Shown here: piece by piece, positions 3,097-42,471 of the stretch
Layout of the letters: each line of letters starts with the position of its first letter
Numbering within the stretch: position 1 is the first letter of the stretch
DNA from: Bacteroidota bacterium
GTDB lineage: Bacteria; Bacteroidota; Rhodothermia; Rhodothermales; JAHQVL01
Length of the DNA: 59,648 nucleotides
Direction of reading: 5' to 3'
Assembly: GCA_039111535.1 (NCBI GenBank)
Contig: JBCCIM010000015.1
Location: forward strand, 1 to 59,648
Notes under the pieces: generated by a model
Databases searched by the model: none
Seen by the model: the letters and a program-made list of their open reading frames with translations, nothing else
What the model was told of the DNA's origin: nothing
Program-made: the position numbers and the translations under genes

Positions 3097-4977
3097 TTAA
3101 GACGATTTGCTGACCAATACAGCCCAGTCCATATTTGCATCAGCCGGCGCACTGCCGAGGCTTACTTCGCCGCCGCCGGTTACACTGGTGACAGAGCCAG
3201 CCTGGAAATCGCCGCCGGCACGTGGATTGTACCATTGGACACTGTAGTTGCCCACGGCCAGGTCGAGCGATGCTGCGCCACCTGCAGGCAGGTAAACCAG
3301 ATACACTTCGCCCGGGTTGGCAAGCACGTGTGCATTGCCCGACGTAGCAAGCGCGTCATCGGGTTGCATGGTCCAGAAAGGTACGTGATCCTGGAAGAGG
3401 GTCAGCGCATGCCGTGCATCATCCCAAACGGTCTGGCGCTGCCGCCAGTCTTCTGAATTCAGGTCGGTGTGTGGGAATTCGTAGCCGAAATAATATTCTA
3501 CGCCGGCGCCACCTGCCATCAGGTTGCCCCAAAGGGTAAGCTTACGAATGTCATCGCGGTTACTGCCCGGCCCGTCAGGTTTGACGCCCACGGTATGGCG
3601 TCCTTGCTCATCGTTCGAGACGACCCAGATTTTTGACGTTTCGCCGGATGCCTTGACCCACTTCAGGGTCGCATTGTGCACATTGTCAAACATGGTTTGG
3701 ACAGACAATCCATCAAGGTCCGATGCATCACCCAACAGCGGCCGGTATACCTCTTCATGTTGCTCAGGATATGTATGGATTACAACCGGATGATCATAGG
3801 GGTCGAGTGCATGAATGTATTCGATGTATGATTTGACGCGTGTTTGTGTCGGATCTTCCCGTTCTTCCCAAATATCATTCTCTTCCCCGAGGTTCCAGTT
3901 CGAGGCGTGATGATGTCCAAACCGCGCGATCAGCTCGCGATAGTAGAGTTTGCGTTCAGGTCCCAGGTCGCCATTGTTTAGCAGGAGATCGTTTTCCGTT
4001 TCCTGGGTTTTGAAATGCAAAAACATGCCCAGCGAATCGCCATGTGAAAGCACAATTTCCCATTGGTCTAGTTTGGATACATCATATCTGTCGTGCACAT
4101 CGGGCGAGATCCAGGGCCATACGTCTTGTCCATCACCAATCACATTCATGGTGAGGAAAGAGAATACGTTGGGCCCCTGTGCCGCCAGGTAGTTAATGGC
4201 GCCGATCAATGCTTTGCCTTTGCCGCCTTTCCAGGAAGGATCGCCTTCGTTCCAGTCGGCCAGATGTGGCTCGTAGTGGTGCAGCGGTGCCGTGGGTACT
4301 TCGCCTTCGCGTTCCTGGCCCTGCGCCAGTTGCGAGTAGGTGTCATCAAAGTCGACGTAGCCGAAGAGGTTTTCCGGGCTGTCTGCACCGGCTTTAACGA
4401 AGTAGGTACCGTCGTCGAATCGGAGATACCGTTCGCCAACGTACCGCAGCATGCCTTTGCCGCGGTGGTCGCGTCCGGTTTTGTCGGTTTCAGCGATGTC
4501 AAAACTACCAGCTGCGCCGTCGAATCCTGTTGCTGTTCCAGCGTTTTCGTCGAGGCTGATGGCTACATCGCTGCCGGAACGGAAAGAGGCGCTGTATTGC
4601 CAGGTGCCAGTTTCGTGTGGCGTGAAATGCACGCGCCACTTGTTACCTGAGATAGCACCTGTTTCGCCGGCGTTGCCATCTGCGGCAAAGAACCCGGGCA
4701 CAACCATGGATGCACCGGAGCCGGCATGGGTAAAGGTGACCGAAAGGCGGTAGTCTCGAAAGGGATTTGGCGTACCAGATTCGGCCGCTTCAGGTCCATC
4801 GAACGTAAGTGTGATGGGGTGCCACTTTTTCAACTCGCCGGTGAGGCTGGTTTCACCTGACAAAGTCCCGGTGCTTGTATTGTTGCAGGCTACCAGAACC
4901 AGGGCGATCAAAAGTGGGAAAAGAAAGCGGGTTGTAGTCAAAAAGTGATTTCTGCGGCAATTATGGGCGTGCAGCAT
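3097..4977 (-). CDS. DUF5060 / collagen-binding-domain lipoprotein, likely glycoside-hydrolase-like, 626 aa
   Basis: Exported lipoprotein: with the ATG at 4977 the signal ends LVAC with Cys31. The longer in-frame start at 5070 would bury this signal behind 31 extra residues. Residues from about 45 to 150 match the DUF5060 beta-sandwich style (WHPITLTFDGP, RDYRLSVTFTH, WRVHFTPHETGTWQYSASF). The centre looks like a TIM barrel of the apiosidase-like/DUF4038 group, with NVFSFLTMNVIGDGQDVWP and WNLGEENDIWEE, where the paired glutamates are candidate catalytic residues. The C-terminus (VYLVYLPAGGAASLDLAVGN, VQWYNPRAGG) resembles the putative collagen-binding domain that often ends these enzymes. 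The likely role is binding or cleaving an extracellular glycan. The substrate is unknown. Confidence 0.8.
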   Translation of the reverse strand: MLHAHNCRRNHFLTTTRFLFPLLIALVLVACNNTSTGTLSGETSLTGELKKWHPITLTFDGPEAAESGTPNPFRDYRLSVTFTHAGSGASMVVPGFFAADGNAGETGAISGNKWRVHFTPHETGTWQYSASFRSGSDVAISLDENAGTATGFDGAAGSFDIAETDKTGRDHRGKGMLRYVGERYLRFDDGTYFVKAGADSPENLFGYVDFDDTYSQLAQGQEREGEVPTAPLHHYEPHLADWNEGDPSWKGGKGKALIGAINYLAAQGPNVFSFLTMNVIGDGQDVWPWISPDVHDRYDVSKLDQWEIVLSHGDSLGMFLHFKTQETENDLLLNNGDLGPERKLYYRELIARFGHHHASNWNLGEENDIWEEREDPTQTRVKSYIEYIHALDPYDHPVVIHTYPEQHEEVYRPLLGDASDLDGLSVQTMFDNVHNATLKWVKASGETSKIWVVSNDEQGRHTVGVKPDGPGSNRDDIRKLTLWGNLMAGGAGVEYYFGYEFPHTDLNSEDWRQRQTVWDDARHALTLFQDHVPFWTMQPDDALATSGNAHVLANPGEVYLVYLPAGGAASLDLAVGNYSVQWYNPRAGGDFQAGSVTSVTGGGEVSLGSAPADANMDWAVLVSKSS

Positions 4978-5081
4978 GGTATTAAACTTTAGGGTGATAG
5001 AACGGTGGAGGCTGATGTTAATCAATTTCGCAACCACCCACAAAAGGCGTGGGTAAATGGCTGCTGGCATTTTGAATGGGG

Positions 5082-5993
5082 CTATTCAACGTGGTATGCG
5101 ATCAATTGGCCTTCCTGCATGACGGGTACGTAAAGCATGCGATCTGCTGCGATGTAGTCAACATCAGCAGCGCCTTGTCCCAGTTGTTGCAGCAGGGTGG
5201 ATCCTGAGCCTTCGTGGAAATACATGAGCCGGCCACTTGCCCAGTCTGTTGTGAATACCCCGCCTTTTTCGTCCGGCTCAACAGCATCAAGTGCGCCGTC
5301 TGGTGCACTGGCATCGAGGGTGCGTATCGCTTGATCTGCAAAGGATATTGCCTGGAAGTAGCGGGCCGTTCCTGGGTTGTCGGTTGTGCCATCGCCCGCA
5401 GCCACCACAAGTTCTTCCCCAATGACATGGGCGCCATTGGGCATCTGAATCTGGTCGTTTTCGAGCCAGACGGATAGTGTGCCATTTGCAAAACGATAAA
5501 TTTTGCTGAACCGTGAGTCAGTTACAAAAATAGACCCGTCCGGGTGTACGGTCACATCGTTCAGGTAGGCATCGCCGGACACTTCGTGGCGCTGGACTAT
5601 TTCGCCAGCATTGAGGTCAATTTCAACAAGCGCATTGATGTCTGAGGCCCACAGGCGATCCTCGCCGAGGGCAATGCCTTTGGGGGCGTTGAGCCCTGTG
5701 ATCCAATCCTGCACAAGCATTTCCCCTGTAGGTGATACTTTGGCGATATAGCCAATGCCATCCATTGCATCGCCGGCGCCTACGAGGTTGGTCACATAGA
5801 TGACGGCTCTTTCAGCATCGTATATGGCCGATTCCGGGCGGTCGAGCCCTGTTTCGAGCCGCCACGCTTCCTGTAGGGTTGGGGCGACTACCTCTGCGGT
5901 GGCCTCGGCGGATTCGGGTTGTTGCGGTGTGGTGCATCCGAACAACAGGATGACACTACCCGCGAGTAGGGAGATTTTGGAGCGTATCTGCAT
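5082..5993 (-). CDS. SMP-30/gluconolactonase-like beta-propeller lipoprotein, 303 aa
   Basis: The start ATG at 5993 gives a lipoprotein signal ending LLFGC with Cys20. The upstream in-frame start at 6050 adds a non-signal-like N-terminus. The mature part shows repeated propeller strands: AIYDAERAVIYVTNLVG, PKGIALGEDRLWASDI, LNDVTVHPDGSIFVTDSRFS, GAHVIGEELVVAAGDGTTDN. This pattern fits the SMP-30/LRE-like six-bladed family, whose members hydrolyse lactones or bind small ligands. Metal-binding residues cannot be assigned reliably. It lies about 100 nt upstream of the DUF5060 lipoprotein on the same strand, so the two may be cotranscribed. Confidence 0.75.
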   Translation of the reverse strand: MQIRSKISLLAGSVILLFGCTTPQQPESAEATAEVVAPTLQEAWRLETGLDRPESAIYDAERAVIYVTNLVGAGDAMDGIGYIAKVSPTGEMLVQDWITGLNAPKGIALGEDRLWASDINALVEIDLNAGEIVQRHEVSGDAYLNDVTVHPDGSIFVTDSRFSKIYRFANGTLSVWLENDQIQMPNGAHVIGEELVVAAGDGTTDNPGTARYFQAISFADQAIRTLDASAPDGALDAVEPDEKGGVFTTDWASGRLMYFHEGSGSTLLQQLGQGAADVDYIAADRMLYVPVMQEGQLIAYHVE

Positions 5994-14073: not shown

Positions 14074-14266
14074 CGTAGGAACAAACAGATCGTTCGACTT
14101 CTACTACAGCATATCTTATCTATAGAAAAAGGTGAATATGAGGTATTGATACAACGTACAGACCCCGCGTGTCGCAGCATCCGCCTGGAAAGCGTGCTTA
14201 CCCCTTGATGCGGCATTGGCGTGTGTAATTCCGTTATTATCTTTCACCTTTCATATTCCAGTTTAT

Positions 14267-15829
14267 ATGGCAGTACCTCAGATTTTGTGGGCGGACGACG
14301 AGATTGATTTATTAAAGCCGCATATTCTTTTTCTAGAAAGCAAGGGCTACACAGTAACAAGCGTTTCAAACGGTTCTGATGCCGTGGAGCGTGTGCGGCA
14401 AACCCGGTTTGATATGGTATTGCTCGATGAGCAGATGCCGGGAATGGGTGGATTGGAAACACTGGCCGGCATCAAGGAGATCGACCCTGACATGCCCGTT
14501 GTGATTGTGACCAAAAGTGAAGAAGAATACCTGATGGAAGAGGCGCTGGGGCAGCAAATCAGTGACTACCTGACCAAACCCGTCAATCCCAGCCAAATTC
14601 TCCTGACGTGCAAGCGTATCCTGGAGCGCACGCGGCTGCGTAGCGAAAAGGCATCCCAAACCTACCTCCAATCGTTCAATCAGATCAGTGCGTCGCTGAT
14701 GAATCCGCTCTCGCACCAGGAGTGGGTTGAGCTTTACTTAAAGCTGGTTAACTACGACCTTTCGCTGGAAGGTGATGATGGTGCGCGGCAAGTGCTGGAT
14801 GATCAGTATCGGGAGGCCAACAGAGAATTTGGTCGCTTTGTAGAGAAAAGTTATCGCGACTGGATCGCCAGCGTATCCGAGCCGGCAGGTGAGCATCGTC
14901 CGGTGTTGTCCCATGAGGTGGTTAACAAATTTGTGTTGCCCCACCTGGGCCGGAAAAAGCCGGTTATCTTTATGGTAATCGACTGTATGCGGCATGACCA
15001 ATGGCTGCAGTTTGAAAAACTGTTATATCCATTGTTCAACTTCAGCAAGGCGTATCATTATTCGATTTTGCCGACGGCGACACCATACTCCCGAAATGCT
15101 ATTTTTAGCGGTTTGCTGCCGCACGACCTGGAGCGGCAATTTCCTTCGCTCTGGTCAAAGGGGGAAGAAGATGAGCACAGCCGCAACAGGAATGAAGAAG
15201 CGTTTCTGTCGAAGCTGCTTGAGCGTAAAGCACCCAGCACCCGTATGCGGTACGAAAAGCTGGTTACAACGCAGCATGGCCGGGAATTCGCACAGAACAT
15301 CAATGAGTTTTTTCAGAGCGACCTGAGCGCCATTGTGGTGAACTTTGTGGATATCCTCGCCCACACCCGGTCGGACTCTGCCGTACTCAAAGAAATTGCG
15401 CCCGACGAAAAAGCATACCGCGCCCTTACGCGCACCTGGTTTGAGCATTCCTGGCTGTTCCAGGCCTTTCAGAGCCTCGCTGAGCAAGACTGCACGGTTG
15501 TGATCACCAGTGACCATGGCGCTGTGAGAAGCTTGCATCCTACCAAGGTGATAGGAGACAGGGAAACGTCTACAGCTTTGCGGTATAAGTACGGCCGGAA
15601 TCTGAAATGCGACGAAAAGCACGCGATTTTTGTAAAGGACCCGCTTGATTTTGGCTTGCCAAGCCGTGGCATCAACACCAACTATATTATCGCGAAAGAA
15701 GATTACTATTTTGTCTACCCGACAAATTATAATCATTACGTCAACATGTATCGTGATACCATGCAGCATGGGGGTGTTACCATGGAAGAAGTTATCCTGC
15801 CTGTTATAACGATGAACCCGAAGCGGTAG
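14267..15829 (+). CDS. porX: PorX-type response regulator with PglZ domain, 520 aa
   Basis: T9SS regulatory protein. An N-terminal receiver (residues 1-120) has the acidic pair DDE at 10-12, phospho-acceptor Asp54 (VLLDEQMPG), Thr82 and Lys104 (LTKPV). A helical linker follows, then a PglZ/alkaline-phosphatase-fold domain with VIFMVIDCMRHDQW, ILPTATPYSRNAIFSG (nucleophile Thr region), FVDILAHTR and VITSDHGAVR, all metal-site segments of the family. Choosing the ATG at 14267 gives the usual PorX length of about 518-520 aa; the start at 14216 would add 17 residues before the receiver. Two T9SS cargo proteins in this window match this role. In characterised species PorX works with the kinase PorY, which is not in the window. 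Confidence 0.93.
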   Translation: MAVPQILWADDEIDLLKPHILFLESKGYTVTSVSNGSDAVERVRQTRFDMVLLDEQMPGMGGLETLAGIKEIDPDMPVVIVTKSEEEYLMEEALGQQISDYLTKPVNPSQILLTCKRILERTRLRSEKASQTYLQSFNQISASLMNPLSHQEWVELYLKLVNYDLSLEGDDGARQVLDDQYREANREFGRFVEKSYRDWIASVSEPAGEHRPVLSHEVVNKFVLPHLGRKKPVIFMVIDCMRHDQWLQFEKLLYPLFNFSKAYHYSILPTATPYSRNAIFSGLLPHDLERQFPSLWSKGEEDEHSRNRNEEAFLSKLLERKAPSTRMRYEKLVTTQHGREFAQNINEFFQSDLSAIVVNFVDILAHTRSDSAVLKEIAPDEKAYRALTRTWFEHSWLFQAFQSLAEQDCTVVITSDHGAVRSLHPTKVIGDRETSTALRYKYGRNLKCDEKHAIFVKDPLDFGLPSRGINTNYIIAKEDYYFVYPTNYNHYVNMYRDTMQHGGVTMEEVILPVITMNPKR

Positions 15830-25748: not shown

Positions 25749-25931
25749 GTGTTATCTAAATCTCCGCTAGTTTCACAGCGATGTTGTCTCACGGTGCCGG
25801 CATGCCGGCAAGCTGACTTCGACCCAAAGTCAATTTTCTGAACCTGACTGCATTAATCCCTGCGACCCTGCATAGGTTGCTTTTTAGATATCCACTTTAT
25901 AACCCAACCCTTGCCTTACGAGGTTCAATCC

Positions 25932-27614
25932 ATGAATCCATCTGGTACCAAATTTCTAGCAGCGTTGATGCTGTTTGTATTCGCTTTCTCCTCGGCGAAT
26001 GCACAGGTCAACGTTACAGATGATATTTCTGCCAATACCACCTGGACAGCAGGTAATGAATACACGCTCGACGGCCTGATTTTCGTCGAATCGGGTGTTA
26101 CGCTGACCATTGAGCCAGGAACAGTCATCAAAGGTCTCGAGCAGGCCAATATTTCAACAGGCGATGGCGCCTCTGCTTTGATTGTTCGCCGTGGCGCGAA
26201 AATCATGGCCATGGGTAACGCCGATGCGCCCATCATTTTCACAAGTGAACTCGACGATGTAAACGTTCCTGACGACCTGGACCAGCGTAATCGCGGTCTC
26301 TGGGGCGGCGTGATCATCCTCGGAAACGCTACAACCAACCAGCCAACAACCGACAACCAGATTGAAGGTATTCCTGAAACGGAAAATGCCCTCTACGGTG
26401 GTACGGACGACGACGACAACTCAGGTACGCTGAAGTTCGTATCGATCCGCCACGGTGGTTTCTCCATCTCAGGTGTTGAAGGTGACGAAATCAACGGTCT
26501 TACCCTCGGTGGTGTAGGCCGCGGTACCACCATCGAAAACGTGGAAGTGTATGCTAACTTCGATGATTGCTTCGAGTGGTTTGGTGGTACGGTTAACACA
26601 AAATGGCTCGTAGGCGCCTTCTGTGGTGACGACACGTACGATTACGATCAGGGCTTCCGCGGTCGCGGTCAGTTCTGGTTCTCAATCCATGACGACGACG
26701 TTGCTGGCCGTGGTGGTGAGCATGATGGTGGTGACGCCGGTGGCGACGACGCTACACCATTCTCTACTCCGATCATCACCAACGTAACCTATATCGGTTC
26801 AGGTGCTGACGCGACGGTAACGGGTGGCGACAACAACGACCGCACCTTTGCCATCCGCGACAACGCAGGTGGTCAGTACTGGTACTCGGTCTTCACCGAC
26901 TACCCGGGCGTTGCCATGGACATTGAAGATCTTGATGATGCAGCAGCTGAAGATAGTCGCAAGCGTTTGGAAGATGGCTCACTGGCCTTCGCTGACAACG
27001 CCTGGTGGAACTACGGTGCTGGCAGCATGCTTTCTGATCTCGTGCCTGACTTTGCTGTGACGATTCTCGGTGACGCCGGCAATGTGCTGGCTGATCCGCT
27101 GCTTGCCAGCATCAGTCGCACGGCAGATGGCAATCTTGATCCGCGTCCCAATCCAGGTTCTCCGGTACTCGTTCCTGGAGGTGCCTTCCAGGTAACCGAT
27201 CCAGATGGCCACTTCACATTCGAAGCAACCGATTACTGGGGTGCTTTCGACGGAGATAACAACTGGCTCGAAGACTGGACCGCACTGAGCGACAACGGAT
27301 TCCTTGGCGACCATGTACTGGTTAGCAACGAAGATGAAGATGCAGTGCCTGGTACGTTCCAGCTCTCGCAGAACTTCCCGAACCCGTTCAATCCTGTCAC
27401 AACGATTGAATTTGCGCTCGACCAGTCTCAGGAAATCCGCCTGAGCGTGTACGACGTACTGGGTCGTGAAGTGAAAGTCCTTGAACAAGGATTGAAAGCT
27501 GCCGGCGTTTACAGCGTACAGTTTGACGCACAGGATCTGGCTTCTGGTATGTACTTCTACCAGCTGCATGGCGAAGCAACAACGGTTACAAAAACCATGT
27601 TGCTCCTCAAATAA
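25932..27614 (+). CDS. Secreted beta-helix-like protein with T9SS sorting domain, 560 aa
   Basis: The ATG at 25932 (ACGAGG about 10 nt upstream) opens a signal peptide ending SSANAQ; an in-frame upstream start at 25911 is less likely. The body has right-handed parallel beta-helix features: TLDGLIFVESGVTLTIEPGT, ALIVRRGAKIMAMGNADAPI, LWGGVIILGNA, TIENVEVYANFDDCFEWFGG. It is rich in Asp/Gly (DDDVAGRGGEHDGGDAGGDD), suggesting metal or phosphate-ligand contact. Residues 477-560 form a type A T9SS C-terminal domain beginning LSQNFPNPFNPVTTIEF and ending KTMLLLK, so it is exported through T9SS and anchored or released at the cell surface. Its function is unknown; pairing with a TonB-dependent receptor suggests ligand capture. 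Confidence 0.88.
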   Translation: MNPSGTKFLAALMLFVFAFSSANAQVNVTDDISANTTWTAGNEYTLDGLIFVESGVTLTIEPGTVIKGLEQANISTGDGASALIVRRGAKIMAMGNADAPIIFTSELDDVNVPDDLDQRNRGLWGGVIILGNATTNQPTTDNQIEGIPETENALYGGTDDDDNSGTLKFVSIRHGGFSISGVEGDEINGLTLGGVGRGTTIENVEVYANFDDCFEWFGGTVNTKWLVGAFCGDDTYDYDQGFRGRGQFWFSIHDDDVAGRGGEHDGGDAGGDDATPFSTPIITNVTYIGSGADATVTGGDNNDRTFAIRDNAGGQYWYSVFTDYPGVAMDIEDLDDAAAEDSRKRLEDGSLAFADNAWWNYGAGSMLSDLVPDFAVTILGDAGNVLADPLLASISRTADGNLDPRPNPGSPVLVPGGAFQVTDPDGHFTFEATDYWGAFDGDNNWLEDWTALSDNGFLGDHVLVSNEDEDAVPGTFQLSQNFPNPFNPVTTIEFALDQSQEIRLSVYDVLGREVKVLEQGLKAAGVYSVQFDAQDLASGMYFYQLHGEATTVTKTMLLLK

Positions 27615-29965: not shown

Positions 29966-30556
29966 TTATGATTTCGCGAAAGCGAGCAGCGGGTTGTATG
30001 CCCCATTGTCAGCTTCTTTAAGGGCACTGATGTATGCTTTTCGGGTTTCTCCCTCTGTCATCAGTTTTGCTCTGCCGCCCCAGGTTAAAGCCTCACCTTT
30101 GTATTTATTACATATGGCGTCAGCACAAAGGCGCGCGTGCCGGCCATTGCCGTTGGGGAACAGGTGGATTTGCACCAGACGATGGTGGAAAATGATGGCG
30201 AGGTCGGTGGCATCATACGTTTGATGCTCTAGCCAGTACAGACTGTCGCCAAGTAGCTTGTACAGCTCTGTCGGGATTCGGAAGTGATCTACACCGATAT
30301 TCTTGTTGGTCTTGCGGTACGCGCCGGCCCATTTCCAGACCTGGCCGAACATACGTTTGTGGAGATGTAAGAGGAATCCCTCCGTGAATATACCCTGCCT
30401 TGCCAGTACGGACTGTTGCATAACCCATTTTCTGGCCTCAATAATATTCTCCTGCTCGAAGCGATCCAGATCGGCCCGGGTTAGAATTGTAGGAATGAGC
30501 TCGATTTTCTCTTCCTCATCAAGCGGCGTCTGGCCATCCAGGTATTCATTTTCCAT
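29966..30556 (-). CDS. Fic/DOC protein of the 'mobile mystery protein B' type, 196 aa
   Basis: Fic-fold enzyme expected to transfer AMP or another nucleotide moiety to a target protein. The catalytic motif is HLFPNGNGR at residues 131-139, a variant of HPFxxGNGR with Leu replacing Pro. Upstream are VWKWAGAYRKTNKNIGVDH and FRIPTELYKLL, the usual Fic core entry. The N-terminal helix region contains RFEQEN at 32-37: the E-N part of the inhibitory (S/T)xxxE(G/N) motif is kept but Arg replaces Ser/Thr. It starts 3 nt after the HTH partner, so the two are translated together. This pair matches the known mobile mystery A/B set, a likely toxin-antitoxin or regulated Fic unit. Confidence 0.9.
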   Translation of the reverse strand: MENEYLDGQTPLDEEEKIELIPTILTRADLDRFEQENIIEARKWVMQQSVLARQGIFTEGFLLHLHKRMFGQVWKWAGAYRKTNKNIGVDHFRIPTELYKLLGDSLYWLEHQTYDATDLAIIFHHRLVQIHLFPNGNGRHARLCADAICNKYKGEALTWGGRAKLMTEGETRKAYISALKEADNGAYNPLLAFAKS

Positions 30557-35145: not shown

Positions 35146-36978
35146 ATGGTATTTACGTTGGCTCGACGCCCTAATCGGGCGCCGGTACGTGCATGGAACA
35201 CCACCTGTATCTTTTTACGTGTTTTTTTGAATGTAGAGCGCTCGCATACTGTCCCTTACCGGCAGTCCTTGCGTATGGCAACTGCCATCGCTGTACTCAG
35301 CCTGCTTCCGCCGGCCAAAATGCACGCGCAAGAGACCTTCTTGCGACACGACATCGACATCGGGTTTGCCGGGGCGCACGCCTTGCAGTCTCATGACCTC
35401 GATAACGACGGCGACCTCGATATCATCGGCGCCGGCCTGACGGTCGACGCCATTTCCTGGTGGGAAAACGACCCGATCAACGGGCTCACCTGGACGCCGC
35501 ATACCGTCTCTGATACCTTCAACGGCGCCCGCTTTGTAGATGCGGCCGACCTGGATGGTGACGGCGATCTCGACCTCTTTGGCGCTGCCGCCAGCGATGA
35601 CCTTGTCAGCTGGTGGGAGAATACCTCCGGCGATGCCAGCGCATGGACGCAGCATCCGGTCGACATTGACTTCGATTTTGCCATGCATCTCCATGCGGCC
35701 GACCTGGATGCTGACGGCGACCTGGATCTCATGGGCGCCGCACTCAAAGGTGATGCAATTCACTGGTGGGAAAATACTGATGGCGATGGATCTGTATGGA
35801 CTGAACATATCATCGACGAGGCATTTGATGGCGCCCGACACGTTTGTTCTGTTGATCTGGACGGCGATGGCGACCTCGACCTGCTCGGCTCAGCTTACAT
35901 TGCTGATGACGTGAAGTGGTGGGAGAACACAGCCGGCGACGCAACCACCTGGGAATTACATACGGTAGACGAAGACTTTGATGGCGTAAATGTCGTTATG
36001 CCTGTTGATATCGACGGTGACAATGACGTGGACCTGTTGGGGGCTGCGGATGTTGCTGACGACATTGTGGTCTGGTTTAATGAAGAAGGGGATGGCTTGA
36101 CCTGGGAGCGGGTCTCTATTGCTGAAAACTTTGATGGCGCCTTCTCCATTATGCCGGCTGATATGGATGGGGATGGAGATACAGACGTACTCGGTGCGGC
36201 CACAGAAGCCAATCAGATGGTCTGGTGGGAAAATAAAAACGGGTTGGGTAATTCCTGGGACGATCATATCATCGATGAAGAATTTGATTCACCCATGGTT
36301 ATCAATGTTGCTGACCTCGACGCTGACGGTGACCTCGACGTGATCGGCGGCAGCTTCGGCGGTGAAATTGTCTGGTGGGAAACAGACCCGCCAGCACTCC
36401 CTGTTGAGCTGGTTTCTTTTGATGCCGTTGTTAATCGCGGCGAAGTGGTACTGCGCTGGGAAACAGCCTCCGAGCTAAACAACGCCGGCTTCGAGTTGCA
36501 GCACAAACCCGGGCCTCGCGGGCAACAGGCAGAAGCGCAATGGGGTATTATGGGTTTCGTGAAAGGTGCCGGCACAGACAATACGCGGCGTAAATACCAG
36601 CGCGTTTTGTCGGACTTACAACCGGGAAACCATCGGTTTCGGTTGAAGCAAATCGACTTTGACGGTGCGTTCGACTACAGTCCGGTTGTTGAAGTGGTCC
36701 TTGCGGCATCTGGCAAACAAACGATGTCTTCGCTTTATCCCAATCCCTTCAATCCGGCAGCAAAATTCTACCTGACGCTGGCGAGCCAGCAAGAGGTAAA
36801 CATAGAGGTCTACAATGCGCTCGGGCAACGGGTGACACAGCTCTTTCGAGGCGTATTGGAGGCAAATCAGGTACACACGTTCGACTTTGAAGCTTCCGGT
36901 TTGCCGGGCGGACTCTACCTGATCAATGCAACCGGGCAGAACTTCTCAACAACCCAGCGTGCGATGTATTTGAAGTGA
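35146..36978 (+). CDS. Secreted seven-bladed FG-GAP/VCBS propeller protein with T9SS sorting domain, 610 aa
   Basis: From about residue 84 to 400 there are seven repeats of about 50 residues. Each has a calcium-loop-like DLDxDGDLDxxGAA segment and, except in the fifth and seventh, a WWEN turn, so a seven-bladed beta-propeller is likely. A fibronectin-like region follows (VELVSFDAVVNRGEVVLRWE), then a T9SS sorting domain from about 525 (LYPNPFNPAAKFYLTL to YLK). The start at 35146 has a strong AAGGGAGA upstream, giving a 43-residue pre-region before the hydrophobic signal core (MATAIAVLSLL). An alternative start is the Met at residue 44 (35275). Likely surface-exposed calcium-binding adhesion or recognition protein. 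Confidence 0.88.
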   Translation: MVFTLARRPNRAPVRAWNTTCIFLRVFLNVERSHTVPYRQSLRMATAIAVLSLLPPAKMHAQETFLRHDIDIGFAGAHALQSHDLDNDGDLDIIGAGLTVDAISWWENDPINGLTWTPHTVSDTFNGARFVDAADLDGDGDLDLFGAAASDDLVSWWENTSGDASAWTQHPVDIDFDFAMHLHAADLDADGDLDLMGAALKGDAIHWWENTDGDGSVWTEHIIDEAFDGARHVCSVDLDGDGDLDLLGSAYIADDVKWWENTAGDATTWELHTVDEDFDGVNVVMPVDIDGDNDVDLLGAADVADDIVVWFNEEGDGLTWERVSIAENFDGAFSIMPADMDGDGDTDVLGAATEANQMVWWENKNGLGNSWDDHIIDEEFDSPMVINVADLDADGDLDVIGGSFGGEIVWWETDPPALPVELVSFDAVVNRGEVVLRWETASELNNAGFELQHKPGPRGQQAEAQWGIMGFVKGAGTDNTRRKYQRVLSDLQPGNHRFRLKQIDFDGAFDYSPVVEVVLAASGKQTMSSLYPNPFNPAAKFYLTLASQQEVNIEVYNALGQRVTQLFRGVLEANQVHTFDFEASGLPGGLYLINATGQNFSTTQRAMYLK

Positions 36979-37154
36979 TTGGGCTCATTAGGGTGAGTAG
37001 ATGTCGCACACCAATTAGGGAATAAAAAGTTTAATACATAACAGAAATAGGTGTTTGGTTGTGAATTAGTTTTTCATTATTTAAACTGCATTGACTTACA
37101 GTAAAGAGCTTGCCAATATTTGCTCCTTATTGTTGGAGGTGAGTTAGTCTTTCG

Positions 37155-37685
37155 TTGATAGTTGAGTTGATGACTAAATTGCAGTTTAAGTGCGGGGAAG
37201 TATTACCTCGTTGGGAGCGTTATAAATCGAATCCTCAGCTAAACCTGGAATGGTTTATAGAGGACTTGTGGGTCGAGGTTAGAGACCTTGAAGACTGGAT
37301 TGAATCTACATTCAACAATCCATCCGTCAGGGCACCTGCGGAGTACAGTGAAGCGTTACTTGGTCAAGTGCTTGAGAATTGGGATTCTGCGCTTGCTAAT
37401 CAGGCGCTTTTAGCAAGTATTCAAACCCTGATAGCTGCATACAAAACAGGGGCTGCCCATCGTATTTTGAAGCTACGCGATGTAATAGTTTCTTTGCAAA
37501 TAGACGAAGAATCTCCACAATACATACACCACAAAATAGCACGTGAACACTACCGAGCCGCTCTAGAATTAGCTAGTGATATAGGAGGGGTATTAGGGGA
37601 GGAGTCCATCAGGGCCGTTGATGATTGTATTATTCAATTCTGTCGTGCGCTTGGAGCTGCGAGCAGAGGCATTAATCCTGAATAA
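37155..37685 (+). CDS. Helical protein of unknown family, 176 aa (paralogue A of the island)
   Basis: No known domain recognised. Predicted all-helical and cytoplasmic. It shares a spaced pattern with the 228-aa protein at 38814-39500: LED (45-47), NPSV (55-58), LIAAY (92-96), AAHRI (100-104) and IHHKIAR (124-130) correspond to LED, NPAV, LIAAY, AAHKI and IHGEAR there. The start is uncertain: GGAGGTGAG at 37135-37143 is strong, the first in-frame codon after it is TTG at 37155, and an ATG lies at 37170. The stop codon overlaps an ATG (TAATG at 37683-37687), as if a second gene once followed. The region is AT-rich and lacks GCCGGC, unlike its surroundings. Confidence 0.65.
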   Translation: MIVELMTKLQFKCGEVLPRWERYKSNPQLNLEWFIEDLWVEVRDLEDWIESTFNNPSVRAPAEYSEALLGQVLENWDSALANQALLASIQTLIAAYKTGAAHRILKLRDVIVSLQIDEESPQYIHHKIAREHYRAALELASDIGGVLGEESIRAVDDCIIQFCRALGAASRGINPE

Positions 37686-37920
37686 TGCCATTAGAGGTTG
37701 TAATAGTATCGTGTACGGCGTCACGTCATATCTAACGAAGTTGAGCATGACCTGTGAACGGAAGTGAGGTCCAACGGGAATACGAAAAAACGTGCAAATA
37801 GTATATTCAACCCATAATCTCGAGGATAGGGATAGTGTAGGATCCTTTATATCGATTTCTGGTATAAGTCACCGTTTTTGCATTTCATTGTATTCGTCTC
37901 TTCGAAGTAGTTGTGAGTAA
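37685..37920 (+). pseudogene. Possible decayed gene downstream of paralogue A
   Basis: An ATG overlapping the previous stop opens MPLEVVIVSCTASRHI, then a stop. The next pieces continue in shifted frames: SNEVEHDL, then VNGSEVQREYEKTCK, then a 40-codon open piece with VYSTHNLEDRDSVGSFISIS. The pieces join into a plausible protein if two or three single-base shifts are undone. The product is not recognised. This could also be chance in AT-rich DNA. Confidence 0.3.
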
Positions 37921-37973
37921 GGTTATTGTAGCGGAATAGCTTACCTTAAATGCACATTCTGAGCTGAAAGTTG

Positions 37974-38256
37974 ATGTCCAATTTTCTAAAAACTGAATAG
38001 ACTTGGTGCTATAGCACTAATAATATTTAGCGCATTTTCAATAAATTGCAATTCTGAAGATGCCTGGAAGCTATAGATGCTCCAGGTTTTGTCGATGTTC
38101 TCCTAAGTGCTGGTATTCATTCCGCATCGGAAGCCAAGAGCTTGGATATTTAGAGTGCTGCATCAGTTGACGAATAGACACATTTCTTAACTAGAGATCT
38201 GTTAGAAGAGACTCAACTTTTAATTACATCTCCCCGAGAATTCTTTTCTATATAAC
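37974..38256 (+). pseudogene. Probable decayed small lipoprotein gene
   Basis: ATG at 37974 gives MSNFLK and stops. One frame over, LNRLGAIALIIFSAFSINC (37993-38049) looks like a lipoprotein signal, then NSEDAWK. One more frame over, LEAIDAPGFVDVLLSAGIHS and SEAKSLDI read to 38150, and after two in-frame stops THFLTRDLLEETQLL and ITSPREFFSI continue to 38256. Two frameshifts and two nonsense codons would explain it. The coding-like content is clear to the eye, but there is no homologue to test against here. Confidence 0.42.
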
Positions 38257-38281
38257 AGATTTCCCTAAACGTTGAATTTTC

Positions 38282-38359
38282 ATGGCTAAAGACGATATTA
38301 TAGATACAGACTACGATGACGATGATGTAATGTCTGATCCTGGTAAACAGCAGGTTTAG
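38282..38359 (+). CDS. Acidic micropeptide, 25 aa, with DYDDDDVM motif
   Basis: Twenty-five codons: a short start (MAKDDIIDT), the acidic core DYDDDDVM at residues 10-17, and a SDPGKQQV end. The core matches DYDDDIVM near the end of the 85-aa protein at 38573-38830. At the DNA level GACTACGATGACGAT is identical in both (38309-38323 and 38777-38791). A Rho-independent terminator 40 nt after the stop suggests a real, short transcript. No strong ribosome-binding site, which is usual in Bacteroidota. It could be a peptide signal, a peptide to be modified, or a remnant of the longer gene's 3' end. Confidence 0.5.
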   Translation: MAKDDIIDTDYDDDDVMSDPGKQQV

Positions 38360-38398
38360 ACTCCAAGTTGGAAATAAAGTAGTTTGTGAGCAGTATTT

Positions 38399-38434
38399 AA
38401 AACCCGTCAGGCATTAATGCAGGCGGGTTTTTTT
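38399..38434 (+). terminator. Terminator after the 25-aa peptide gene
   Basis: Stem AAAACCCGTC / GGCGGGTTTT with one T-G wobble, an inner GCATTAATGC palindrome, and a seven-T run. Confidence 0.85.
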
Positions 38435-38478
38435 ATTCTTGAACCAGAACCATGAATTATACGAAAGGCTTATATATT

Positions 38479-38494
38479 AGTACTATTAAGTACT
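38479..38494. promoter_or_regulatory. AGTACT-ATTA-AGTACT repeat upstream of the 85-aa gene
   Basis: Two copies of the palindrome AGTACT separated by 4 nt, about 80 bp upstream of the ATG at 38573 in very AT-rich DNA. Candidate operator; no known regulator is implied. Confidence 0.3.
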
Positions 38495-38572
38495 TTTATT
38501 ATAGAACAAATTTTCTTATATAACCGTATTAACGATCTATGTCACTTTTTTTCTAATCACAATTGCTTAGGT

Positions 38573-38830
38573 ATGGACGCAAGGCAGCCGGGTGTACAGG
38601 TACGAAAAGCGGGAAAACGTCTTCCAGCATATACAGCATCTCAGTCATATCTTCTCAGCGCTAATCAGCCTGCATTGAGTCTGATCGACGAAGTTTCCCA
38701 CCGTGATCAAAGTGCGCTATCACATGATGTGCAGGATGGAGAACGGGATGAGCGTGGCTATGCTTTGATCTCTTTCGACTACGATGACGATATAGTGATG
38801 AAAGAACCCGTTGTCACGTTGGTTGGTTAG
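38573..38830 (+). CDS. Small protein with C-terminal DYDDDIVM motif, 85 aa
   Basis: Unrecognised. A basic N-terminal part (VQVRKAGKRLPAYTASQSYL) is followed by a Ser/Asp-rich middle and an acidic end: FDYDDDIVMKEPVVTLVG, with DYDDDIVM at residues 69-76. The motif is shared with the 25-aa peptide gene about 300 bp upstream. No signal peptide. A leader-like N-terminus and an acidic short C-terminus would suit a modified-peptide precursor or a degron-like tag, but no modifying enzyme is present nearby. Its 3' end overlaps that of the convergent 228-aa gene by 17 nt. Confidence 0.55.
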   Translation: MDARQPGVQVRKAGKRLPAYTASQSYLLSANQPALSLIDEVSHRDQSALSHDVQDGERDERGYALISFDYDDDIVMKEPVVTLVG

Positions 38831-39500
38831 GATTCATATCCATTAAGTGGTTCGAGCTTTCTGCTTCAAGGTAAAACTGCCCCACCAGCAGTATGGCCGT
38901 TTTGAAGTCTTTTCTTGATTGATCGTGATTTTGCCGTCTCTGAGCACTTCGCCCTAGATCATAGAATGACCGCGCTTCTCCATGTATAGAGATCAATGTT
39001 TTAGGTGAGACCAGCCACTCTATATCTTCGATATACTTTCTGGCCCGCACAATTTTATGTGCTGCCGTATGTTGATAAGCTGCAATCAGGCTATCGAGAC
39101 TATGATTAATCGCTCGTTGAGCAGCGTTGTCGCCGGCGTAATTGCGATTTCTTTTCCAAAGCTCTCTTGCTCTGTTCCATTGAATTCTCGCTTTTTCTCC
39201 TGACTCTGTAACCGCGGGATTGCGGAGAGCGACCTCGTAATGGTCTTCCAATTCAATTAATTCCGAAGCTATGGCGTCGAGAGCGGCGTATAGTTTTGAT
39301 TGGAAATCCTGTTGACAGTCCTTGAGCAGATTTACGAAGTTGGGTATGAAGTTAGGCGGCAGTATAAGTTCATCCTTTAAAGACACATTATCTGACGTTA
39401 GTGTACTGCTTACAGATACCTCTTCACTAGGAGCTGGATTGCGGATATCCACTCCATGTTTGTCCCAGATGTATTCTCTTAGTGTTTTTACTTCTTCCAT
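38814..39500 (-). CDS. Helical protein of unknown family, 228 aa (paralogue B of the island)
   Basis: No domain recognised. An N-terminal extension of about 50 residues (Ser/Glu-rich, SEEVSVSSTLTSDNVS) precedes a helical core homologous to the 176-aa protein at 37155-37685. Matching positions: LED at 84-86, NPAV 94-97, LIAAY 138-142, AAHKI 146-150, IHGEAR 172-177. The C-terminal helix (FKTAILLVGQFYLEAESSNH) resembles a TPR-like repeat end. It faces the small 85-aa gene tail to tail. Together these genes look like a compact accessory module rather than housekeeping functions. Confidence 0.7.
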   Translation of the reverse strand: MEEVKTLREYIWDKHGVDIRNPAPSEEVSVSSTLTSDNVSLKDELILPPNFIPNFVNLLKDCQQDFQSKLYAALDAIASELIELEDHYEVALRNPAVTESGEKARIQWNRARELWKRNRNYAGDNAAQRAINHSLDSLIAAYQHTAAHKIVRARKYIEDIEWLVSPKTLISIHGEARSFYDLGRSAQRRQNHDQSRKDFKTAILLVGQFYLEAESSNHLMDMNPNQPT

Positions 39501-39837
39501 AACCCGGGAGGTGCTCAGGCGTATTTGATGAAATTCTGTTGAATTGAGTCATGATTAAGTACGATCTCTACTGTTTTTGGTTGCCACTGAATTGCCACGA
39601 ATGGGCCTAAAAAGAGACGTTTCACCAATTAAGACGTACTGCTTGATATAATTGACGTTTAATGGGTTGTTGATGACAGGTATGGGGGGGGAGAGGTGAC
39701 AGAATTGCTTGTCTTAAAACGACGCCAATGTCTCATAACATGTCATCCTGTCATCCCGTCCTTTGTGGTACACTTTTCGTACAATGGAGAAGCGCAACCG
39801 AAATTAATTTTCCCCTGCCAAAAATTCAGTTAGATAA
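39501..39837. other. Intergenic region before clpB, 337 nt
   Basis: It holds the clpB promoter region. The only feature seen is a tandem duplicate TGTCATCC-TGTCATCC at 39741-39756. No HrcA CIRCE palindrome or other heat-shock operator is evident, and no gene. Confidence 0.4.
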
Positions 39838-42471
39838 ATGAATCTCCAAAAATTTACTGTCAAAGCGCAAGAAGCTGTTCGTAAAGCTACGGAGATTGCG
39901 GCTTCGAAAAATCATCAGGGGGTCGAATCTGTTCACGTATTGAAAGCATTCCTGAGCGATTCTTCCGGGATTGTTGTGACGATGCTACAGAAGCTTGGTG
40001 TCAAGAGTAGTTTCCTCGATACGAAGCTCGACCAGTTAATGGGCAAGCTGCCGGTTGTGACCGGGGCAAGCGTTTCCGGGCAGTATGTTGGCCAGGGATT
40101 GAAAAAAGTATTTGACAGGGCGCTCGCTGAAGCAGAGTTGTTAAAAGACGAATATGTAGCGAGTGAACACCTGCTTATGGCGTTTGCCGAGGACAAGTCC
40201 GAGTTGGGCAAATTCCTCCGCGAGCAGGGCGTGACGAAAGACAACATTCTTGCCATATTGAAGGACATTCGTGGTGGGCAGCGGGCGAGTGATCCGCATG
40301 CTGAAGAACGGTATGACGCACTCAAACGGTATACCCGCGACCTGAATGCGCTGGCAAGGAAAGGGAAAATTGATCCGGTTATTGGACGCGACGAGGAGAT
40401 CCGTCGTGTGTTGCAGATTTTGTCTCGCCGAACCAAAAACAACCCGGTGTTAATCGGTGAGCCAGGTGTAGGCAAGACCGCCATTGCAGAGGGACTCGCT
40501 ATCCGCATTGTATCCGGGGATGTGCCGGAGAATCTTAAATCCAAACGTATTCTTGCGCTCGATATCGGTGCGTTGATTGCCGGCGCAAAGTACAGGGGAG
40601 AGTTTGAGGACCGCCTGAAGGCTGTTGTCAAAGAGGTAACGGATTCAGATGGTGAGCTTGTCTTGTTTATCGATGAGATTCATACGCTGGTAGGTGCCGG
40701 CGCGGCAGAAGGAGCGGTTGATGCAGCCAATATTCTCAAGCCGGCGCTTGCCCGCGGAGAGCTGCGTGCCATCGGTGCAACAACCCTTGATGAGTATCGC
40801 AAATATCTCGAAAAAGACAAAGCCCTCGAAAGACGGTTTCAGACCGTCGTTGTAGATGAGCCGTCTGTGGAAGATACCATTTCCATTCTGCGCGGGATCA
40901 AGGACAAATACGAGGTCCATCATGGTGTACGCATTATGGACGGAGCCCTTGTAGCAGCAGCTGAACTAAGTCAGCGCTATATCACAGACCGCTTTCTACC
41001 CGACAAAGCCATTGACCTTATTGATGAATCAGCGGCCAAGCTGCGCATCGAAATTGACTCGATGCCAGAGGAGCTTGATGCGCTGGAGCGTCAGATCCGC
41101 CAGCTTGATATTGAGCGCGAAGCAGTAAAACGTGATGGCGATAAAGGAAAACTCACGCTGATTGCTGAGCAGCGGGCAAACCTCGATGAAGACCGGAAAG
41201 AACTGCAGGCACGCTGGCAGAATGAAAAAGAACTCATTCAGCAAATTCAGCAGGCCAAAGAAGAAATTGAACACCTGCGTGTAGAAGCAGAGAACCTGGA
41301 ACGCCAGGGGAATTACGGCAAAGTGGCTGAAATTCGCTACGGGCAGATTCCCCAGCTTGAGCAGGGTGTTGAATCTGCAAAAGGCAAGCTCGACGATATC
41401 CAACAGATGGGAGCTTTGCTGAAAGAAGAAATTGATGCAGAGGACATTGCCGCCATTGTGTCGAGATGGACTGGCGTGCCTGTTTCCCGAATGCTTGAAA
41501 GTGAAAGGGAGAAGCTGCTTAAAATGGAAGATGAGCTTGGCCGGCGCGTTATCGGTCAGCGGGATGCGTTGGAAGCTGTTTCTCACGCCGTGCGCCGGGG
41601 CCGTGCCGGATTGCAGGAAGCATCCCGGCCCATTGGCTCCTTTATTTTCCTCGGTAGCACCGGTGTTGGTAAAACCGAATTGGGCAAAGCCCTCGCAGAA
41701 TTCCTGTTTAATGATGAGCAGGCGATGGTACGCATCGACATGAGTGAGTTCCAGGAACGCCATGCCGTAAGCCGGCTGATTGGTGCGCCTCCAGGATATG
41801 TGGGCCACGACGAAGGCGGACAGCTTACCGAAGCAGTGCGCCGCCGGCCGTATGCTGTGATCCTGCTCGATGAAATTGAAAAGGCACATCCGGAAGTATT
41901 TAATATCCTCTTGCAGGTACTCGATGATGGCCGGCTCACCGACAACAAGGGCCGAACCGCTGATTTCAAGAATACCATCATCATCATGACCAGTAACCTG
42001 GGCTCTGAGTTAATTCAGGAAAGGATGGACGCCATGAACGGTCTGCTCTCTGATGAAGCTGAACAGAAACTCAATGATGACCTTATGGGCATGCTCAAGA
42101 AAAAGCTGCGCCCCGAGTTTCTGAATCGTATCGATGAAGTGGTCATGTTCAAGCCGCTGGGCCGGAGCGAAATTCGCAGTATCGTGGAAGTGCAGTTTAT
42201 GCGTGTTTCCAGAATTGCCCAGAAAAGCCACAATATCACGCTAGAGTTGACGGATCCGGCAAAAGACTGGATAGCGAACAAAGGGTTCGATCCCGTGTTT
42301 GGTGCACGTCCGCTGAAGCGCGTTATCCAGCGTGAAGTTGAGAACAAACTGGCAGAACAGGTGCTATCAAACTGGATTCAGGATGGAGATACGGTGCAGA
42401 TTGATCTCAGTGAAGATGGCACAGGCCTGACATTTGAGCAAATCAAGCAGCAAAAACTGGTTGAAGCATAG
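39838..42471 (+). CDS. clpB: ATP-dependent disaggregase ClpB, 877 aa
   Basis: Hsp100 chaperone that, with DnaK, pulls proteins from aggregates. The N-domain covers about residues 1-145 ([20 protein letters not shown]). NBD1 has Walker A GEPGVGKT at 207-214 and the [20 protein letters not shown] Walker B. The coiled-coil middle domain (about 400-525) contains [19 protein letters not shown]-like heptads. NBD2 has Walker A GSTGVGKT at 606-613 and [20 protein letters not shown]. The conserved ends [12 protein letters not shown] and [20 protein letters not shown] close it. Length is typical. Confidence 0.97.

Follow-up and report, generated by a model that had tools for sequence, protein, structure and literature searches.

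Two old paralogues with a common core and two acidic small ORFs in an accessory island upstream of clpB

Background

Lineage-specific ORFan insertions, which form small AT-rich islands in the accessory part of bacterial genomes, are common. The locus described here resembles them in its short genes without homologues, in GC and GC3 values below those of its host, in its presence or absence relative to a related genome and in its unclear boundaries, but it differs in being structured rather than random, with two old paralogues, p1 and p2, and two small ORFs, pepA and pepB, that share a segment. As sequences, p1, p2, pepA and pepB are novel; as a kind of island, theirs is ordinary.

TPR proteins provide a second point of comparison. 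Helix pairs are forecast for p2, which also has a weak TPR-like hairpin at residues 176-205 (TPR_2, PF07719: E 0.007, 16.8 bits against a cut-off of 27; TPR_12, PF13424: 15.4 bits against 30.1). This resemblance, however, is below cut-off, is confined to one stretch, lies outside the core common to p1 and p2, and is absent from p1, which has no TPR match of any kind. Several tandem 34-residue repeats were not found, and comparison of one half against the other gave no internal similarity (scores 18 and 20).

Orphan immunity gene arrays are known to evolve fast (PMC12247911, PMC10470768, PMC9484751). These arrays, which belong to polymorphic or T6SS toxin systems, are like the present locus in being variable and in encoding diverged, paralogous, small soluble proteins (same sources), whereas p1 and p2 match no immunity family, have no recognised toxin or secretion gene nearby and are in opposed orientation.

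Hereafter, the window is the whole stretch of DNA analysed (59,648 nucleotides), which makes up the whole of contig C15 in an assembly of 6.59 Mb and 355 contigs. Its relevant features are collected in Table 1.

Table 1. Positions of the island, its genes and its repeats in the window
Feature	Position	Strand	Basis and remarks
FG-GAP/T9SS-type protein gene	35146-36978		One flank of the island
Insertion (island), ~2.6-2.8 kb (roughly 2.7 kb)	36979..39738	none	Between the FG-GAP/T9SS-type gene and clpB; ends approximate
p1, 176 aa	37155-37685	+	ORF; core homology to p2; GC3 0.39
pepA, 25 aa, MAKDDIIDTDYDDDDVMSDPGKQQV	38282..38359	+	Sequence; no clear ribosome-binding site; codon score z 2.5
24-nt repeat D1, copy 1, codes DYDDDDVM	38309..38332	+	Direct repeat, 83% identical to copy 2
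Likely intrinsic terminator, 3' of pepA	38397..38437	+	~10-bp stem (ACCCGTC...GGCGGGT), then T run
pepB, 85 aa, ends ...SFDYDDDIVMKEPVVTLVG	38573..38830	+	ORF; codon score z 3.3
24-nt repeat D1, copy 2, codes DYDDDIVM	38777..38800	+	Direct repeat, partner of copy 1
p2, 228 aa	38814-39500	-	ORF, ATG start; core homology to p1; GC3 0.41
clpB	39838-42471		Other flank of the island

Results and discussion

An island with a near-empty site in a relative

The order glycosyltransferase-RecJ-FG-GAP-ClpB-SMC is conserved in G002, the nearest syntenic relative and a member of the same family, with identities to the window of 61% for RecJ, 48% for FG-GAP, 85% for ClpB and 82% for SMC (covered part only). 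The spacing from FG-GAP to ClpB is 2859 bp in the window as against 223 bp in G002. Because intergenic likeness between the two is limited to approximately the last 100 bp ahead of clpB, the ends of the insertion, and hence its length, are not exact. The island has a GC content of 0.41, and the GC3 of its genes (0.39-0.42) falls below that of all 35 other window genes for which it was measured (0.45-0.60). A single relative with short spacing is insufficient on its own to fix the direction of change, and it is the low GC3 of the island that favours gain here over loss in G002. Together, the near-empty site with conserved flanks and the deviating composition support a horizontally acquired accessory island, in agreement with the accessory status proposed in the earlier note. 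The p1/p2 region occurs once in the host genome, with neither gene duplicated elsewhere there, and a search of Rfam gave no family at threshold, just marginal sub-threshold matches.

In another genome of the same family, G001, a different gene lies upstream of clpB (4704-5744 of locus L080), so the clpB side of the locus is variable within the family.

The p1 and p2 proteins

As previously described, p1 and p2 are ORFs that face each other across the two small ORFs. The start codon of p1 is TTG, preceded by GGAGGTGA at 37135-37142, with an alternative ATG at 37170. An open frame of this length has a chance probability of ~3e-5, and the codon score is weak (z 1.9); that of p2 is modest (z 3.0). 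In both genes GC1 exceeds GC2, as is typical for coding sequence. Both products are predicted to be soluble, p1 being acidic (pI 4.9, net charge -10 at pH 7) and p2 somewhat less so (pI 5.9, net charge -5), and both are forecast to be all-helical. AlphaFold2 models built from the two-row alignment (pLDDT 36.5 and 46.4) are too poor to be read beyond that forecast, and so do not amount to the two unrelated folds that the earlier note had named as a refutation.

The BLASTP alignment of p1 and p2 spans 83 columns with 33% identity, a bit score of 37 and an E of 5e-8 for this single pairwise comparison. By Smith-Waterman the pair scores 94, as against 31.9 +/- 5.4 in full shuffles (Gumbel P ~1.5e-7) and 33.7 +/- 6.0 when residues are shuffled within 12-residue blocks (Gumbel P ~8e-7). 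Since the score exceeds both full and block-wise shuffles, the two proteins share an ancestor, in the core only: the homologous stretch is p1 41-115 and p2 80-161, where the motifs LED...NPxV...LIAAY...AAHxI occur in the same order. Codons agree at 10 of 26 identical residues (9.7 expected), so that synonymous sites are saturated and the duplication is old. As judged from sequence comparison, p1 and p2 are thus old paralogues with a common 83-aa core. The earlier note had carried the motif series on to IHxxAR. The core part stands, at a shuffle P of ~1e-6 or lower, and the extension does not: the C-terminal segments, including IHxxAR (IHHKIAR in p1, IHGEAR in p2, with spacing off by one), score 23 against 21 +/- 4 for shuffles, which is chance level. 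The N-termini likewise have no match to each other.

Might the similarity be due to chance, or to convergent helix composition? Both proteins are forecast all-helical and are rich in Ala and Leu in the matched stretch, their ends do not match, and there is no third member to back a family. Shuffling within blocks, which keeps local composition, nevertheless peaks at 74 in 2000 trials against the observed 94, and in both proteins LED and then NPxV precede the contiguous LIAAYxxxAAHxI. We regard chance or convergence as very improbable.

Neither protein has an above-cut-off match in Pfam, NCBIfam, PHROGs or PADLOC, and PDB sequences gave nothing usable for either. The family is therefore unrecognised by these collections, as the earlier note had it, and no profile assigned p1 and p2 to different known families, the other outcome that it had named as a refutation. 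No third member was found in viral contigs (queried with both proteins, the two-row alignment and a LIAAYxxxAAH DNA pattern), in the genome contigs of one genome per GTDB 220 species (two-row alignment), in plasmids and phages (tblastn, blastn), or in 196 relatives, 245 class genomes and 394 phylum genomes; these negatives hold for the data searched, the collection scans requiring an exact short peptide match and the phylum being covered as a sample. The LIAAYxxxAAH DNA pattern matched the genome contigs ten times, about the chance expectation. Those matches that were in frame belonged to unrelated proteins or frames, such as hydrolases, and were dropped; the sole tblastn trace was a stretch of 20 residues in locus L078 (E 0.8). 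Several other weak matches were dropped on inspection, namely a glycosyltransferase-like frame aligned to the p2 N-terminus only (G172), an ABC ATPase (G257), a sensor-like frame (G408), a TPR-like protein (G218) and a Caballeronia match that overlies a peptidase-like gene.

The state of the two genes bears on whether the island is simply neutral, decaying foreign DNA, with p1 and p2 as leftovers of a larger, degraded mobile element and without present function. Consistent with such an origin, the ~0.9 kb that separates p1 from pepB contains almost no genes, the coding scores are modest, and G002, the sole relative bearing the flanks, lacks the island. The island itself has no integrase or transposase ORF, no tRNA and no terminal or notable flanking direct or inverted repeats. 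However, both ORFs are intact and have kept LIAAY...AAH despite synonymous saturation, GC1 is above GC2 in each, and a scan of the gap gave no additional decayed gene above shuffles. Decay is a possibility to be taken seriously, albeit one that we would bet against.

An orphan immunity island is a further reading, in which p1 and p2 would be diverged immunity proteins without a toxin of their own, giving protection from toxins that competitors inject or secrete, and the small ORFs would be incidental. Small, soluble, helical proteins that are old diverged paralogues, in DNA of foreign composition without mobility genes, would suit this role, as would the PorX-like and T9SS-type genes read from sequence in the window. 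Against it, there is no toxin remnant, no immunity family was matched in Pfam or NCBIfam at E values up to 10, the two genes do not form a same-strand array, and the segment shared by the small ORFs is left unexplained. On balance we think this unlikely. More broadly, an immunity, exclusion or signalling role, as suggested in the earlier note, is possible for p1 and p2, but no result supports such a module, and none of the adjoining genes was recognised as one of toxin, secretion, phage, plasmid or defence type.

A segment common to pepA and pepB

The products of the two small ORFs are acidic (pI 4.1 and 4.7), and pepB is convergent with p2, with a 17-nt overlap. Both contain DYDDDxVMxxP (IIDTDYDDDDVMSDP in pepA, LISFDYDDDIVMKEP in pepB), with a score reached in ~2e-4 of shuffles of either peptide, a statistic to be taken with caution because acidic runs are low-complexity sequence. 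At the DNA level, the two ORFs have an exact 15-mer in common, and the length of the repeat is matched by 1% of island dinucleotide shuffles. A degenerate DNA pattern for DYDDDxVM has exactly two sites in the 394 phylum genomes, which are those in pepA and pepB. The same pattern found 23 stretches in viral contigs; these lie in large phage or other proteins that are otherwise dissimilar, and were dropped. From the segment common to pepA and pepB we infer that the island holds two diverged pairs, each of a helical protein and an acidic-tail peptide. This second pairing is a new observation and the most interesting result of the analysis.

Acidic peptides next to small proteins also call to mind a toxin-antitoxin or phage-defence module, with an effector or regulator role for p1 and p2 and an inhibitor role for the peptides, which might for instance be nucleic-acid-mimic antitoxins. 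The small, foreign, variably present island, the low pI of both peptides and the overlapping convergent arrangement of pepB and p2 would accord with it. The profile evidence points the other way: the sole defence or toxin-antitoxin match is that of p1 to PADLOC Cas11e, at chance level (E 0.02, 12.8 bits), and no cas gene could be recognised among the window ORFs by reading, while p2, pepA and pepB have no PADLOC match at all. No catalytic motif was recognised in p1 or p2, and reading of the window ORFs likewise revealed no other defence gene. To the eye, a frame at 38061-38252 that contains two TAG stops resembles the last part of a PIN-domain toxin (FLTRDLLE...ITSPREFF). This candidate remnant is unsupported, having no Pfam, NCBIfam or PDB match and a score against the host genome's own PIN protein that 22% of shuffles attain. 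We consider a module of this type decidedly unlikely.

A proposed helical protein and acidic peptide system

Our best explanation, offered tentatively and at low confidence, is a horizontally acquired island of orphan genes whose helical proteins would act by binding or neutralising a partner, which may be the acidic tail. An orphan immunity pair or decaying foreign DNA is about as likely. Under the explanation that we prefer, a foreign island of 2.6-2.8 kb, made up of lineage-specific genes, would have arrived upstream of clpB by horizontal transfer, carrying one small system in two diverged copies. In each copy, p1 or p2 would recognise, as a soluble helical adaptor or neutraliser, a short acidic segment borne by pepA and pepB themselves or by a target that these peptides mimic, and the divergence of the copies would serve specificity. 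A binding role (adaptor, receptor or neutraliser) is the most economical one because p1 and p2 are predicted to be soluble and have no recognised catalytic motif.

Counting for a paired system are the p1/p2 homology with its saturated synonymous sites, the pepA/pepB motif, the near-empty site and the low GC3, as well as the all-helical forecast and the absence of transmembrane-grade hydrophobicity from p1, p2 and pepB. Several observations count against it. Both p1 and p2 carry a net negative charge at pH 7, which disfavours binding of acidic peptides. The two putative pairs are arranged differently, p1 and pepA being co-oriented and 600 bp apart and pepB and p2 convergent and overlapping. Moreover, pepA has just 25 codons and lacks a clear ribosome-binding site, the codon scores of p1 and p2 are modest, and the searched data hold no third locus. 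The fully specified form of the proposal, a two-component system in two copies, with a helical receptor-like family (LED-NPxV-LIAAY-AAHxI core) and DYDDDxVMxxP address peptides that are specificity-paired as receptor or neutraliser, is a long shot. Should the pairing prove real, the presence in a single genome of two copies that differ in specificity would provide a self-contained test case, with four possible pairings, for an undescribed form of peptide recognition. If not, the locus is a clean example of a small foreign insertion bringing in paralogues without outside relatives.

An alternative reading of pepA and other features of the window

The pepA region could instead give rise to an untranslated RNA ahead of the terminator, or to a small RNA at 38282-38445, rather than a peptide. 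The RNA fold of this stretch has a z of -3.1, with none of 200 shuffles equally stable; the likely terminator hairpin within it was not picked up by the terminator scan.

Between the glycosyltransferase gene and recJ lies a Fic-family-like gene (29966-30556), which has no Fic tblastn match in the syntenic locus of G002 (L079) and is possibly another accessory gene. The ORF at 14216-15829 combines a response regulator with a PglZ-like domain and is PorX-like by reading, and C-terminal sorting-type domains are found at 25911-27614 and 35146-36978. The PorX-like gene and these domains together suggest a type IX secretion lineage.
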